DNA from: Dioscorea cayenensis subsp. rotundata
Lineage: Eukaryota; Streptophyta; Magnoliopsida; Dioscoreales; Dioscoreaceae
Length of the DNA stretch: 64,000 nucleotides
Direction: 5' to 3'
Assembly: GCF_009730915.1 (NCBI RefSeq)
Contig: NC_052496.1
Location: forward strand, 1-64,000
Shown here: positions 42,130 through 50,478 of the stretch, in pieces
Position numbering within the stretch: position 1 is the stretch's first letter
Layout of the letters: the number at the start of each line of letters is the position of its first letter
Position numbers and translations under genes: made by a program
Notes under the pieces: model-generated
The model's input: only the letters and a program-made list of their open reading frames with translations
Database searches by the model: none
What the model was told of the DNA's origin: nothing

Positions 42130-42201
42130 AGGTTCCACCGAGATTTGAACTCGGGTTACTGGATTCAGAGTCCAATGTCCTGACCACTAGACCATGGAAC
42201 C
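42130..42201 (-). tRNA. trnQ-CUG: tRNA-Gln (anticodon CUG)
   Basis: On the minus strand a 72-nt cloverleaf reads GGUUCCA at the 5' end and UGGAACC plus discriminator U at the 3' end, pairing as acceptor stem. The anticodon loop is CUCUGAA with anticodon CUG between stems UUGGA and UCCAG. The T arm contains GAGUUCAAAUCUC, a good B box, and the D arm UGGUCUAGUGGUCAGGA, a good A box. No intron is present and the CCA end is not encoded, as expected for a nuclear gene. A T run just downstream on the minus strand (complement of AAAAA near 42122) can serve as pol III terminator. Confidence 0.95.
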
Positions 42202-43792: not shown

Positions 43793-44251
43793 TAGGGCTG
43801 TAAACGAGCCGAGCCGAGCCGAGTATCACCAGGCTCGAGCTCGGCTCGAGTATACTATTCGAAGGCTCGAGCTCGGCTCGAGCTCGTTCGAGCTATTTTT
43901 TTTGTGCTCGAGCTCGGCTCGCTGAAAAGCTCAAGTACTCGAGCTCGAGCTTTGTTTAAAGTCTCGATTAGACTTGTATACATAAAGTATTTTTTGTAAT
44001 TTTTATATAGTTTATATAATTATGTATTTTTTTGTAATTTATATATAAATAATTTAATATTTTTATATATAAAAAGCTCGTTTAGGCTCATGAGCCTCAC
44101 GAGTGAAAGTATTTTTTTCGAGCTCGAGCTCGTCAACATAAAGCGAAGCTGAGCTCGGCTCACTTTCCGTGAAAAAAATCGAATCGAATTCGAGCATTGA
44201 CCGAACCGATCTCGAGGAGCTCACGAGTAGCTTGGCTCATTTACACCCCTA
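43793..44251. mobile_element. Non-autonomous hAT-type element, 459 bp
   Basis: The left end TAGGGCTGTAAACGAGCC and the reverse complement of the right end TAGGGGTGTAAATGAGCC match at 16 of 18 bases. The subterminal parts are filled with short GAGCC, CTCGAG and GAGCTC words, as in many hAT termini, and the centre is AT-rich. No coding capacity. The flanks share TCATTAC (43786-43792 and 44255-44261) but not as a clean adjoining 8-bp duplication. Confidence 0.7.
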
Positions 44252-45072
44252 CAGTCATTACCCATTAGCCACGCTTCCGCTGGTGCTGGACCATCTTAAC
44301 AAACACTTATTCCCCTCCACCTAGAGGTGTCAAACGGGCCGTCTGGGCCGGGCCAGCTGACGGCCCAGACGATTTGGGCGTGCCCGATCCGAACGCGATG
44401 CTACGATGATCGTGTCCGGGGTGAGCACGGCCCGAACCCTGGCCGGGCGAGGGCCAGGTTCCGTGGCCCGTGGTCGGCCAGCGACGCCGTCTCGGGCCGT
44501 GCCGGCCGAACGCTGGGCCGGCCCAGACGCTGACCCAGTGGTGGCAGGGTTGGGCTCGTGCCAGACGCAGCTGGGCCGACCCAGAACGATCCCACTTCTT
44601 ATTTTTTTATTTTTTTATTTTTTTGTGTTAAAACTTTGATTTTTATTTTTTTCTTTTTTTCTTTGATAGAAAGACATTTTTTTACCCATCCCAACAACTA
44701 TCTAACGGCTAGTTTTATGGGTATTTTAGTCTTTTGGTGTAAATGACAATTTTGCCCTTTACAACAACTATAAAGCGGCTAGTTTATGAGGGCATTTTTG
44801 GAATAAAAAAATATTAAAAAAATTATAAATACCCCTAAATTCAAACTAAAAATTTCCACACCAAACTCTCTCATCTCTCAATCTAATTCTCTCTTTGGCT
44901 TCTAAGTGCAACTTCCAAGCTTCAAGTTTGCAAATCCAAGTTTCAAGTTCATCATCAAGTATCTCAATTGCACTCAAAAGAAATCGACACCAAAAAAATC
45001 GACTTCAGTAAATTATTTGTTAAAAGCAATTGAGGGTAATCCGTTGTTCTTAATTTTTTTAATTTTTCATAA

Positions 45073-47215
45073 TGGCCGGTTCTTCTCCCAACTTTCCCTC
45101 CGATAATTCTCCGTTTGGTTTTTTATGAAAATGCCCCGTTAAATTCTCCGGATGATGATGATGTTGTTATTGAGACCCCAAATATTGGGCCATCAAGTGA
45201 CAACCCTCGAAGCTCTAGAAAAGCGAACTTCCGGGGTTTGGCAATTTTATGACATTGTTGATTTTTCCGAACAAAAGGCACTCGGGCGGTTTGTAAAAAA
45301 ATGTAAAAAGATTTTTTTCTTGCCAAACTTCGGGGACGGGGCATTTAAAAAGACATGCCGATAAGCATGCCGCTGAAGCCACACGATCCCACAAAGCGCA
45401 AATTAGTTTTTACCGATTCGAGTATGGGAAATTTTATTTTTTTAATAATGAAAATGCAAGAAAAAGAAGTTGCGAAATTTATTGTTCAAAATGAGCAACC
45501 TTTTTTTATCTTGCCGAAAAATCCCGCTTTTTATAAAAATGCTTATTCGAGGTTTTAATCCAAATTTTTAAATCGGTTTCAAGAAATACTATGAGAAAAT
45601 ATTGTCTTATTATTTATGATGATTATAAACAAAAAAATTAATTTCGAATTATCTTCTTGTTCTTTTTAAAAATTTCTCTTACTTCGGATATTTGGTCTTC
45701 TCAATTTCAAACGAATTATCTTTTGTGTTACGGTCACTATATTGATAATAATTGGGTTTTGCAAAAGCGTATTTTTAAGTTTTTTTGAATTAGAACACAG
45801 TCATACTGCAAGTGTTATTGCAAGTTATATAACTCGGGCTATTAATGAGTATAATATTTCGAGTTCTATATTTTTCAATTAGTTTGGATAATGCTTGACA
45901 AATAACAATGCGGTCGATCTTTTAAAAAAATGAATTTAATGCCTTTATTTTTCCGGGCTTTTTCATGTGCGTTGTGCTTGTCATGTTTTTGAATTTATGT
46001 GTTAAAGATGGTTTAAAAAAATAATTGAGCCCCATATTAAAAAAAGTTCGAAATTCTATTTTTATATGTTCGAAATGGTTCAACCCGAAGACATGATTTT
46101 TCAAGCTTATTGTTCGGAAAGGGGAGAAAATGTAAAAGATATATCATTGATGTTGAGCATAGGTGGAATTCAACTTATGAAATGTTGGAGTGTGCTTATA
46201 ATGATAGAGATATTATTTCTATGTTTGTTAATGAGAGATTTCCCAATGATCATGTCACTAATTATGATTGGGAAGTTTGCCATTTAATTAAGGAATTTTT
46301 TTGGAAATTTTTTTATGCTTCAACTAATATTTTTGTCCGGTGTTTATTATTCCACTTCATCTATTATTGTCAACCAAATATTTTTTTATTAGTGAGGTTT
46401 TTTTGCAAAAATATAGAGAAGACCCTAATTTTTGCTCCTATTATTGCTCCCATGGAGGAAAAAAATTTAAAAAAATATTTTTGGAAAAAAATCGAACCAC
46501 TCCCTATTTTTAGCTATGTTTCTTGACCCCCGTTTTAAAATTGATGGCACTTTTTTTGCATAATTGATTCTTATGATAATAATATGGATCTTGATCATTC
46601 TCTTTTGAAAGAAAATTATCGTTCTTTATTTTTATGACATGTATAATGAATATCATAGAAAAATATGGTGATAGAAGGACTTTCAATATGCCTCAATCTA
46701 GTGAAAGTTCCTCTTCAAGCACCAAAAAAATAGATCCGCCACTTATGTTGTAAATATAATTAACAAAAAAATTTTTCCATGGGTGCTTCTTCTTCTTTTT
46801 TTCTTCTTCTAATTCTAATACTAGTACTTCTTCTACTTCTCATGAAATAAATCATTATTTAAATAATAATATTAATAATTTTTTCTTACATCGGAAGAAA
46901 TGGATAAGTTTGATATTTTTGACATGGTGGAAACAACGGGAGCATAGTTATCCTGTACTTGCCGCCATGGCTCGTGATCTGTTAACTCCACCGATGTCTA
47001 CGAGTAGCATCGAGTCTTGTTTTAGTGCGAGGGAAAAAAAGTCTTGGATGATAGGAGGAGCGAGAATGAATAATCAAAGCGAGTGCAAATGTGCATATGT
47101 CCGAAGGATTGGCTAGATCTTTGAAGATAGATTGCAAGGGCTAATAGAACAATTCACCCACGATGGCGCGGAGAAGGCATATATCATCGATCTCGACGTA
47201 GAAGAAATAAATTGA
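45073..47215 (+). pseudogene. Decayed hAT (Ac-like) transposase
   Basis: Pieces of an Ac-type hAT transposase appear in order but in different frames. A BED zinc-finger-like start lies near 45210-45370 (SGVWQFYDIVD, then C-K-K-C). A central part lies near 46100-46300 with HRWNSTYEMLECAYNDRDII and NYDWEVCHLIKEFF. A hAT dimerisation part lies at 46919-47114 (WWKQREHSYPVLAAMARDLL, then TPPMSTSSIESCFS). Many frame breaks and stops separate them, often at T runs, so no full-length enzyme can be made. The usual hAT transposase length is about 650-800 residues, and the pieces are spaced as expected for one. Confidence 0.85.
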
Positions 47216-47499
47216 TGAGCCTCAACTCTCAAGCTTGGAACATGCCAAGATTAATCCTTTATTCCTTTTTTTATTGTTTCAAATGTTCAGATAAGTATTT
47301 TTGAGTTTATTTCAAAAATTCAAATGATAGTATGAATCTATGATACTAATAATTAATTGTTATTTTTTTGCAATTTTTAAGATTTTTTTATTTAAATATA
47401 AAATATATATTTAAGTATTTAACTAATCTTTCATTCTTTCTTTCTATGTTTCTCATTAGGGTTAGCTCCTTAGTTGGTGACTTGGTCCTTGACTCCTTG

Positions 47500-48090
47500 A
47501 AGCCGTGGCCCGTAGCCGCCGATCTCTAAAACCAGCTAAGCCCTCTCCCAAACTCATCCCGATCTCCTCAACCCCAATTCCCAACCTTTTCCCACCCGAC
47601 CACAATCCCATCCCCGGATCCGTTCCCCATCAAGAACCACAGAACCCACCCGATGATGGACTCCCTCAAATCCTCCTCCGCGCGTAAACTCCCCATCAAG
47701 CGTCGTCCCCCTCCTCTCTCCTCCTCCTCCCCTCCTTCCCCTTCCCCTTCCCCTGACCCTTCCTCCACTCTCCCCTACTCCGACGATGCCGCCGACGATG
47801 ATCCTTCCTCCGACTCCCTCCATCCTCCTCCTTTCAAGTTCCAGCAGCATCCGGGTCCGAGTCCGATGAGATCCGCTTCCTCCAAGGCCTTCTCGGGCGC
47901 CACGCTCGATCCCATGGTCTTCCCCGCGACCTCAATCTCTTCTTTGATCGCTTCTCGAGCACATGGCTCGACCTTTCACTCGCTCTCGACTTTCCGAGAA
48001 GCTCCGACGTCTTCGCACCAAGTTCCGCATCATGTCCGGTCGTATCCACCGTGGCCAGGACCCCTCCCGTCTTGCCCCCCATGTTGAGTG
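47500..48090 (+). pseudogene. Captured GeBP/STOREKEEPER-type gene fragment inside the hAT element
   Basis: GC-rich host-like coding sequence, unlike the AT-rich transposon body. A Pro/Ser-rich N-terminal part (KLPIKRRPPPLSSSSPP from 47653) is followed in another frame by SDEIRFLQGLLGRHARSHGL and DLNLFFDRFSS (47862-47960). In a third frame come RLSEKLRRLRTKFRIMSGR and HRGQDPSRLAPH (47987-48083). Together these follow the DUF573 DNA-binding domain of GeBP/STKR plant transcription factors. Two frame changes break the fragment: two extra bases just before SDEI, and a small deletion before RLSEK. The C-terminal part of the gene is absent. It lies between the transposase and the right end of the element. 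Confidence 0.8.
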
Positions 48091-49032
48091 ATTTGAAGAT
48101 AGATAGTGTATGGATTGGCTGATCTCTCCTATTTCATCTTCTTCTAAGTTTATTTCTACCTGTTATAACTTGTCTTATGGTTTACACCTTGATGTTACTG
48201 GATTTGTTCATTCAATGCTTGAGGTCCAAGATGGAAATTCAGAGGTGAAACAACACTTGGAGAGTATTCTTTTCTATTTTGTGTTCTTAAATTTGTATTA
48301 ATAAATCTCATGCTCTCTTGTTTGAGTTGATTTTGTAAACTCTTCATCTTTATGAGACCAAGTAATGTGATTTTCTTCTTTTTTTAATTTTTTTTTGCTT
48401 GTATAGTTCCTCACTTCCTCTTTACTGAAATTGAGAATGGTTCTTGTTTTTTTGGGTTATTCACTTATTTGAATATTTATGTTGAATCGTTGATTGATGA
48501 TTTCAAGTCATTTAACTAAGGATTTAGATTAGGAAATGGATTAAAACTCAAAAAAGCCTGAAGGATTTGATTTCAAAGATAAATAGATAATGATAAATGA
48601 TAATATAGTTTTTCAATTATAGTAAAATTTAATTTATATTTATATTATTTAATTATTAGATAATGTTTCTTATATTTTAAATTTTTTTTTTAAATTTTTC
48701 TGATTTTTTTATATATTTTTATTTTTAATATTTTATATTAAAAAATATTAACGGGCCGGCACGGCACGAGCCCGGCCAAAGTGGGCCGTGTCTCGTGCTG
48801 GGCCGACCCTCCACCATTTGCGGGCCGTGCCGGCCCGGCACGACAAAGCCATGGGCCGGGCCGGCCCGGACACGCACAGTTCTCGGGCTGCCATGGGCCC
48901 GGGCCGTGCCGGGCCGTGCCGGCCCGTTTGACACCTCTACCTCCACCGCAACATTAAAAAAAAATGATTTTATATTATTATTATTATTATATATATATAG
49001 CATTACTCACCATTCACTCTAGACCCAAATCA

Positions 49033-50478
49033 ATGAGTCTTCTCGTCTTCTTCACTGTTTTCTTTGGAGTTGTGCTTTCGCTCGTCGCCGGTTCACTGAA
49101 TCGGGTCGAGTACCAAACCCTGGTCGTGACCCGACTCGAGTCACCCACTCCTCTCCGGCCCGACGACGAGTTTCTCGCATGGGTCGTAGACCCGAACACG
49201 TTATCGGATCTCGTTTCTGGATCCGAACCCGCTACCTCCTTCCACGTCGGTCTCGCCCACCGTGACGCGCTTCACGCTGGGAACTCCTCTGGCGAGGAGC
49301 TCTTCAAACTCCGTCTCGACCGCGACGCCGCGCGCGTCGCGACCCTCGCCGCAAACAGGACGCGGCCGAAGGATTTCAGTAGCTCGGTAGTGTCCGGGCT
49401 TGCTCAGGGGAGCGGTGAGTACTTCACCCGGCTGGGAATCGGCACACCGCCGAGCTACGCCTTCATGGTTTTGGACACCGGCAGCGACGTGGCGTGGCTG
49501 CAGTGCGCTCCCTGCCGCCGGTGCTACTCCCAGACTGAGCCCATCTTCGACCCTCGCCGCTCTCGAACCTACGCCGCTGTCCCTTGTGCTGCCTCCCTTT
49601 GCCGCCGGCTCGACACCTCCGGCTGCGACACCCGCCGCGGCGCCTGCCTTTACGAGGTCTCCTACGGCGATGGGTCCGCCACCATGGGGGACTTCTCCAT
49701 TGAGACTCTCACATTCCGCAGCGGTGCTCGCTTACCTCGTGTCGCTCTTGGCTGTGGTCACGACAACCAGGGCCTCTTCGTCGCCGCCTCCGGCCTTCTC
49801 GGTCTCGGTCGTGGTCCTCTCTCCCTCCCCTCTCAAGCTGCCTCCCGCCTCTCACGCCGCTTCTCCTACTGCCTCATAGATCGCACTTCCCCATCCTCCA
49901 AACCCCCATCCCGCTCCTCCTCCCTCATCTTCGGCGCCTCCGCCGTTCCCCGAGCATCCACAGGGGTGGCCTACACTCCGATGATCCGAAACGCTAAGAT
50001 GGACACCTTCTACTACGTGGATCTCATCGGGATCAGCGTCGGCGGGGCTAGGGTTCCGGGGGTGGAGCTAAAGCTAGATCGAACATCAGGGAGGGGAGGA
50101 GTCATCGTGGATTCGGGGACGTCAGTGACGCGGCTGGCGAGGCCGGCGTACGAGGCCGTCCGTGACTCGTTCAGGGCGGGGGCATCAGAGCTGAAGGCAG
50201 CGCCAGGAGGGTTCTCACTGTTCGACACGTGCTACGATCTCACAGGGAAGTCGGTGGTGAAGGTTCCCACGGTGACGCTGCACCTAGCCGGCGGCGCATC
50301 CGTGGCGCTGCCGGCGGAGAACTACTTGATCCCCGTGGACACGAAGGGGACCTTTTGCTTCGCCTTCGCTGGGACGGAGAGCGGCGTCTCCATCATCGGA
50401 AACATTCAACAGCAAGGATTCCGGGTTGTCTTCGACGCCGCGAGGTCGCGGATCGGGTTCTCTCCTCGCGGGTGCTGA
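49033..50478 (+). CDS. ASPG1-like nepenthesin-type aspartic protease
   Basis: Secreted pepsin-family (A1B) aspartic protease similar to ASPARTIC PROTEASE IN GUARD CELL 1/2. Single exon, 481 residues, GC-rich. The start at 49033 was preferred over an in-frame ATG at 48964 because it gives the signal peptide MSLLVFFTVFFGVVLSLVAG; the upstream residues are a Tyr-rich run from a (TAT)n repeat. Catalytic Asp148 lies in DTGSDVAWLQC and Asp360 in VDSGTSVTRL. The nepenthesin-type insert, with Cys in CAPCRRCYSQTEPIFDP, CAASLCRRL and CDTRRGACLYEVSYGDGS, is present. A prosegment with RDAARVATLAANRTR precedes the mature enzyme. The leader and promoter are cut short by the hAT element that ends 93 bp upstream. 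Family members act in stress and ABA responses. Confidence 0.94.
   Translation: MSLLVFFTVFFGVVLSLVAGSLNRVEYQTLVVTRLESPTPLRPDDEFLAWVVDPNTLSDLVSGSEPATSFHVGLAHRDALHAGNSSGEELFKLRLDRDAARVATLAANRTRPKDFSSSVVSGLAQGSGEYFTRLGIGTPPSYAFMVLDTGSDVAWLQCAPCRRCYSQTEPIFDPRRSRTYAAVPCAASLCRRLDTSGCDTRRGACLYEVSYGDGSATMGDFSIETLTFRSGARLPRVALGCGHDNQGLFVAASGLLGLGRGPLSLPSQAASRLSRRFSYCLIDRTSPSSKPPSRSSSLIFGASAVPRASTGVAYTPMIRNAKMDTFYYVDLIGISVGGARVPGVELKLDRTSGRGGVIVDSGTSVTRLARPAYEAVRDSFRAGASELKAAPGGFSLFDTCYDLTGKSVVKVPTVTLHLAGGASVALPAENYLIPVDTKGTFCFAFAGTESGVSIIGNIQQQGFRVVFDAARSRIGFSPRGC

Follow-up and report, generated by a model that had tools for sequence, protein, structure and literature searches.

Capture of host gene fragments by hAT transposons is known from grapevine and maize. 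Members of the grapevine hAT family Hatvine-6, with 35 copies having more than 90% of the transposase, share the transposase and the inverted ends; their remainder, often unique or common to few copies, frequently corresponds to intronic, exonic or non-genic DNA of the host (PMC2528002). In maize, hAT ends and 8-bp target duplications surround copied host exons and introns in two Ds2 and nine Ds-l4 gene-fragment cases (PMC3260210). Pack-TYPE elements, including the maize Pack-hAT elements, also hold host coding DNA between hAT ends and have been spread by transposition (PMC8903248). The DNA analysed here, the window, comprises positions 1 to 64,000 of contig NC_052496.1 of Dioscorea cayenensis subsp. 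rotundata. It contains a plant hAT transposon of 4618 bp (44322-48939), which holds a fragment captured from a GeBP gene, directly followed by DNA from another host gene. The original prediction for this locus had called gene capture less often described for hAT, although it had already been reported for Hatvine-6, maize Ds and maize Pack-hAT; the element is a well documented new case of such capture with an unusually complete history.

The Hatvine-6 pattern of shared transposase and ends with a variable, host-matching remainder recurs in the present family, host parents being shown for two pieces only. Unlike the present element with its 20-bp ends and 8-bp duplications, Hatvine-6 is listed with 13-bp ends and 9-bp duplications, and no order of captures is given in the part of PMC2528002 drawn on. 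In the present family, the variation falls in one slot, two parents have been identified, the captures can be put in order, and members have exchanged sequence. The maize Ds elements are non-autonomous and the Ds-l4 elements share little with Ac beyond the ends (PMC3260210), whereas the sampled copies of the present family keep the transposase gene, though broken. The ends of rice Dart/nDart, printed as gcccatttggccacctcta (19 bp) and starting with TAGAGGTG when reversed, and its 8-bp duplications closely resemble those of the present element; the likeness covers ends and duplications only, and no captured genes are described in the part of PMC2956540 drawn on. In contrast to the present element, which has PF05699 and a transposase gene of about 2.1 kb, the Pack-TYPE definition sets elements with a transposase match apart (PMC8903248). 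Because of this match, the present element is by that definition not a Pack-hAT. Helitrons use another mode of transposition and lack inverted ends. In maize Helitrons, as in the present element, several host fragments have been acquired stepwise in one element (PMC3288121). How cut-and-paste transposons gain host DNA is still debated, and the nameable parents, the pre- and post-capture siblings and the junctions described below make gap-filling and template-switching models testable copy by copy. Moreover, the element adds a hAT case that keeps the transposase gene beside the cargo.

The element and its GeBP cargo

The inverted ends TAGAGGTGTCAAACGGGCCG at 44322 and 48939 match perfectly (20/20), and the perfect 8-bp target duplication CCTCCACC directly flanks the element (44314-44321 and 48940-48947). 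The 64 kb were scanned for perfect 12-bp inverted pairs at most 10 kb apart with a flanking perfect 8-bp direct repeat. After a low-complexity filter this pair alone remained; the unfiltered scan gave 351 pairs, as compared to 0 in 20 first-order random windows. Pfam identified the dimerisation domain Dimer_Tnp_hAT (PF05699) in 46760-47113 (E=1.9e-12). Six further segments from the transposase region or the cargo were without a Pfam match at E up to 1; for the N-terminal zinc-finger BED, neither 45297-45491 nor 45349-45555 matched Pfam, and this region is broken in the window copy. Short inverted ends, an 8-bp duplication and a transposase with a C-terminal dimerisation domain, three features of the hAT superfamily, are all present. 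The ends begin with TAGAGGTG and look Dart-like by eye when set beside those printed in the part of PMC2956540 drawn on; the element is one member of a hAT family whose ends are Dart-like. The inverted ends of about 20 bp, the perfect duplication and the transposase relics had all been named in the original prediction, and each was borne out. From left to right, the locus is composed as follows:

44314..44321, no strand: target site duplication, left copy CCTCCACC
44322..44341, plus strand: left terminal inverted repeat, 20 bp, perfect
44342..44590, no strand: GC-rich left subterminal region (element 1-270 has 24% substitutions vs L040)
45072..47215, plus strand: hAT transposase gene, broken in this copy, in part perhaps through assembly error; bounds set by eye from the three-frame translation, dimerisation domain at 46760-47113
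47216..47504, no strand: AT-rich spacer behind the transposase, then left edge of the variable slot
47519..48083, plus strand: captured GeBP gene piece, parent G000:C18:9197380-9197949
48081..48208, plus strand: 128-bp remnant of an intron piece captured earlier from an SLT11-like splicing-factor gene, source C3; overlaps the GeBP piece by ATG
48273..48750, no strand: AT-rich right region, common to 26/38 siblings beyond the terminal part
48751..48919, no strand: GC-rich right subterminal region
48920..48939, minus strand: right terminal inverted repeat, 20 bp, perfect
48940..48947, no strand: target site duplication, right copy CCTCCACC

Positions 47519-48083, a piece of 565 bp, match a GeBP gene on contig C18 of the genome at 95.6%. 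A genome search with the fragment gave eight matches from seven first-look candidates, all of which were scored. Long matches lie at three places, namely the window, a sibling element on C1 (L040/L048; 93.4% to the parent) and C18:9197380-9197949, and the other five are 30-63 bp long. The C18 parent has an uninterrupted open reading frame of 342 codons with the GeBP domain PF04504 at residues 65-158 (E=5.5e-21, 75.5 bits), and no TAGAGGTG-type end was found within 3.6 kb around the gene. The cargo begins 134 bp ahead of the start codon and continues for about 145 codons, to ...DPSRLAPH, in the sense of the transposase. It carries about 81 of the 94 positions of the DNA-binding domain; the remainder of the domain and the C-terminal half of the protein are missing. 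In the window copy, PF04504 is split over two frames (E=0.099 in 47802-48119 and 4.7e-4 in 47948-48088), and the scores of 13.8 and 21.2 bits, like the 24.7 bits of L040, are all below the Pfam cut-off of 29.5. It had been predicted that a host-type fragment with likeness to DUF573 lies between the transposase and the right end. The DNA match to the parent confirms this, the peptides quoted in support are present in the translations, and the proposed bounds of 47500-48090 were nearly exact. A chance likeness of the peptides to GeBP is ruled out by the 95.6% DNA match to an intact GeBP gene. Likewise, a derivation of the C18 gene from the element is ruled out, as the C18 gene is longer, intact and without hAT ends.

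The GeBP cargo might still be active, yielding a shortened DNA-binding protein or small RNAs directed at its parent gene. In the sense orientation, the cargo retains its 5' untranslated region, its start codon and the greater part of the DNA-binding domain, the letters at the frame changes may be unreliable, and small RNAs from Pack-MULEs are mentioned in the part of PMC8277862 drawn on. However, only two copies with GeBP cargo were found, the end of the domain is missing, and the reading frame runs into a stop soon after the junction, which makes such an action rather improbable. Most likely the captured pieces are passengers, with methylation probably keeping them silent; their transcripts may conceivably have a role.

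A second host piece, the order of capture and mobility

The genome that contains the window (G000; 584 Mb, 2249 contigs) returned 84 matching pieces. At least 38 siblings of the element are present in it, seven of which (L040-L046) coincide with L002-L008 under other bounds; the number is a lower bound and leans to copies keeping the transposase. The main pieces of the siblings are 84-95% identical to the window copy (L001). At 26 of the 39 loci, the window included, both ends have at most 3/13 mismatches each and a perfect 8-bp duplication is present, the agreement of the duplications having been part of how the ends were chosen. The duplications are shared within L015/L016 and L028/L035, which may be copies of one insertion each; L025 has TATATATA. 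Ends were set for 38 loci, provisionally for L014, L021, L027, L036 and L037, with L038 omitted, and 36 of the 38 loci, all except L027 and L034, gave a tail after the transposase. L038 (G000:C16:21769000-21774900) contains a tandem array, with four successive matches to positions 1223-1509 of the element and a fifth, longer one from 1223.

The GeBP piece was found in two of the 36 tails, L001 and L040. Thus, siblings with and without the fragment and a parent locus free of inverted ends, which had been proposed as checks of capture, both exist, 34 tails being without the fragment. The prediction treated the GeBP fragment as a lone cargo, and this view did not hold, since the fragment overlies a second host piece at a place where the sequence varies across the family. 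The 30-bp match on C3 (L052) extends to 128 bp of the window element (48081-48208) at 98.4% identity, and its match to L010 reaches 346 bp at 98.8%. In the oriented L052 sequence, the captured stretch is 1283-1628, between the coding stretches 812-916 and 1705-1803 of a gene that shows, in its later stretch, the SLT11 N-terminal domain PF21369 (E=9.8e-23). Because it is intronic, the second piece must have been copied from genomic DNA. It is present in five of the 36 tails (L001, L040, L010, L041 and L042; 98.4, 97.7, 98.8, 95.4 and 83.5% identical to C3). Since both GeBP carriers are among these five, the SLT11 piece came first; in the simplest order, the GeBP piece then took the place of its left portion and of the GC-rich sequence in front of it.

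These results bear on the idea that the GeBP fragment is a nested retrocopy, that is, a processed GeBP mRNA put into the hAT element by the machinery of a retrotransposon. The parent open reading frame is uninterrupted, and the absence of introns from the fragment is therefore uninformative either way. However, the fragment stops inside the coding sequence, lacks a poly(A) tail and a flanking duplication of its own, and substitutes the slot sequence found in L010 and L041 instead of interrupting it. Moreover, the insertion boundaries that had been named beforehand as the mark of a retrocopy are absent, the right edge joining the intron piece directly. The retrocopy was rejected as extremely improbable on account of the missing poly(A), the missing internal duplication and the intronic neighbour piece.

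At the right junction of the GeBP piece, CCCATG/TTGAG, the host sequence CCCATGACC and the pre-capture element sequence TTATGTTGAG share ATG (3 bp), and at the left junction the host and the earlier element share CC (2 bp). Both junctions fit template switching as described for Pack-TIRs in the part of PMC8277862 drawn on. In such a mechanism, a break or an excision gap would arise inside the element and would be repaired by DNA synthesis, which could jump via 2-3 bp of matching letters to another template and back. The alternative template might be a host gene or another member of the family.

The sibling L040 (= L002) is 94% identical to the window element over the full element. The target duplications differ (CCTCCACC in L001, GCGATATC in L040), and the two copies show 3.0% substitutions in the transposase region and 3.0% in the cargo, which implies that a single cargo-bearing element gave rise to both. 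Thus, the element with the double cargo transposed after the second capture. Elsewhere, L001 and L040 differ by 6.3% in the AT-rich spacer, 10% in the right GC-rich subterminal region and 24% in the left one; sequence error and recombination are possible readings of the excess on the left. Four siblings have 3.2-4.0% substitutions relative to L001 in the transposase region, placing the two captures at about the age at which that part of the family spread. It is very likely that host DNA has repeatedly taken over the internal slot of this hAT family, first SLT11 and then GeBP, and that the element remained mobile afterwards. Some results weigh against this history. At 2-3 bp, the microhomology is little different from chance, and it was looked at in one capture only; a transposase tree of 36 copies, which has short inner branches, does not pair L001 with L040, so that recombination or sequence error would have to explain their separation.

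The variable slot between transposase and right end

The transposase part is common to the siblings by construction of the search and the AT-rich right region is widely shared, as listed above; the sequence between the two is variable. Grouping at a mutual coverage of at least 75% gave 15 groups among the 36 slots, or 14 once L016 had been assigned by eye to the L009 group. In 13 of the 36 slots no right boundary pattern turned up, and a default was used instead. For Pfam searches, the slots named below were translated in three forward frames with stops as X; L041, in one frame, had no match below 0.05. A PROPPIN match was obtained in L030 (3.1e-9) and, below the cut-off, in L022 (1.1e-6). The slot of L035 matches Glyco_hydro_14 in one frame (1.3e-8), indicating a beta-amylase piece, with nothing in the other two frames. 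Two further matches are below the cut-off, namely a weak one to HhH-GPD in L022 (0.0097) and GeBP in L040 (3.9e-5). The control, 18 reverse frames taken from six slots, yielded no match below 0.05. The host pieces identified (GeBP, SLT11 intron, PROPPIN, Glyco_hydro_14 and the weak HhH-GPD) all have the same orientation as the transposase, as would be expected if they were co-transcribed with it.

One reading of these data is that host DNA is swapped in and out at one internal place, the ends and the transposase gene being kept, and that capture is routine for transposase-bearing copies, with about 14 types of which some share pieces. Several points speak against it and also count against the capture history given above. 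The slot groups share pieces, so that 14 types are not 14 captures. In the forward frames, Pfam found nothing under 0.05 for the slots of L012, L017, L018, L019, L029, L031, L037 and L043, and a host origin of these eight is suggested by base composition and variability only; L019 was without a match although it shares with L022 the stretch holding the weak HhH-GPD. Furthermore, 39 of 441 first-look candidates were scored, these were found by likeness to the element, and copies without transposase are under-sampled. Alternatively, the slot may vary mostly by recombination among old and diverse members of the family, with host captures being rare. L022 is a clear mosaic of two elements, L019-like up to tail position 806 and L030-like, with the PROPPIN piece, from 815, which implies that breakpoints between family members also fall in the slot. 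The common pieces of the slot groups, the discovery of two parents only in the genome search made with the GeBP fragment, and the subterminal GC-rich regions, which are far more diverged between L001 and L040 than the transposase, also agree with recombination. On the other hand, the GeBP piece is 95.6% (L001) and 93.4% (L040) identical to a single host locus, and the SLT11 copies are 83.5-98.8% identical to theirs. The shared pieces, the family identity of 84-95% and the transposase-leaning sample led us to lower routine capture to a tentative proposal and to raise predominant recombination, which we regard as unlikely though worth serious attention.

Frame changes and neighbouring features

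The transposase consensus of 34 copies is open for 667 codons. Compared to it, L001 has 12 synonymous, 41 non-synonymous and 0 stop changes, together with 48 insertions or deletions, of which 44 shift the frame; L040 has five insertions or deletions. The 34 copies together show 458 synonymous, 1212 non-synonymous and 75 stop changes and 720 insertions or deletions, 600 of them insertions. The substitution classes are near the neutral expectation, giving little sign of recent selection on the transposase, which speaks against many active copies.

Homopolymers and CAG/CTG sites are altered above other sites, often to a new CG, and in some copies only. Among triplets with enough cells, CAG (39.6% of cells) and CTG (35.8%) differ most often, with the CG-bearing triplets GCG (33.8%) and ACG (33.0%) close behind. 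Among the altered CTG cells, 24 of 73 are TTG, as deamination gives, and a new CG is present in at least 28 of the 73; for CAG, 13 of 67 are CGG and 8 of 67 TAG. In the GeBP cargo of L001, the sites touched relative to the parent are CTG 6/7, CAG 3/7, CTCAG 3/3 and CCG 0/18, one poorly aligned stretch inflating this count; in L040 they are CTG 7/7, CAG 5/7, CTCAG 3/3 and CCG 4/18. Per copy, CHG-to-CG changes correlate with insertions (r=0.67) and hardly with substitutions (r=0.17), and 14 of the 34 copies have none. This pattern is somewhat probably base-calling error on CHG-methylated, poorly polished repeats. The similar frequency of deamination-type and CG outcomes slightly weakens this explanation. 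Moreover, only one of the 47 L001 insertion blocks is unique to L001, a result against a technical origin which could also mean inheritance, and the parts of the literature on nanopore sequencing and CHG methylation drawn on give no direct support. If base-calling is the cause, this implies methylation of the element, and a non-coding status cannot be read from the frame changes. The original prediction had concluded from two frame changes that the fragment is no longer coding; both frame changes are present in the letters, but the inference is unsafe because the letters may hold base-calling errors. In any case, the fragment ends before the end of the DNA-binding domain. More generally, frameshifts seen in repeat copies of this assembly call for caution, as they may have a technical origin.

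Downstream of the element, an intact aspartyl protease gene (49033-50475, 481 amino acids) with TAXi_N (4.3e-53) and TAXi_C domains has its ATG (49033) 85 bp from the right target duplication, and a TATA-like run was noted by eye at about 48990, between the right end of the hAT element and this ATG. On the other side, the element is adjoined by a 459-bp GAGCTCGGCTCGAG-rich, hAT-like miniature element (43793-44251; TAGGGCTGTAAACGAGCC ... GGCTCATTTACACCCCTA), for which no exact 8-bp duplication was seen by eye directly outside the ends. Further upstream, a tRNA-Gln gene (anticodon ctg) is located at 42130-42201 on the minus strand.

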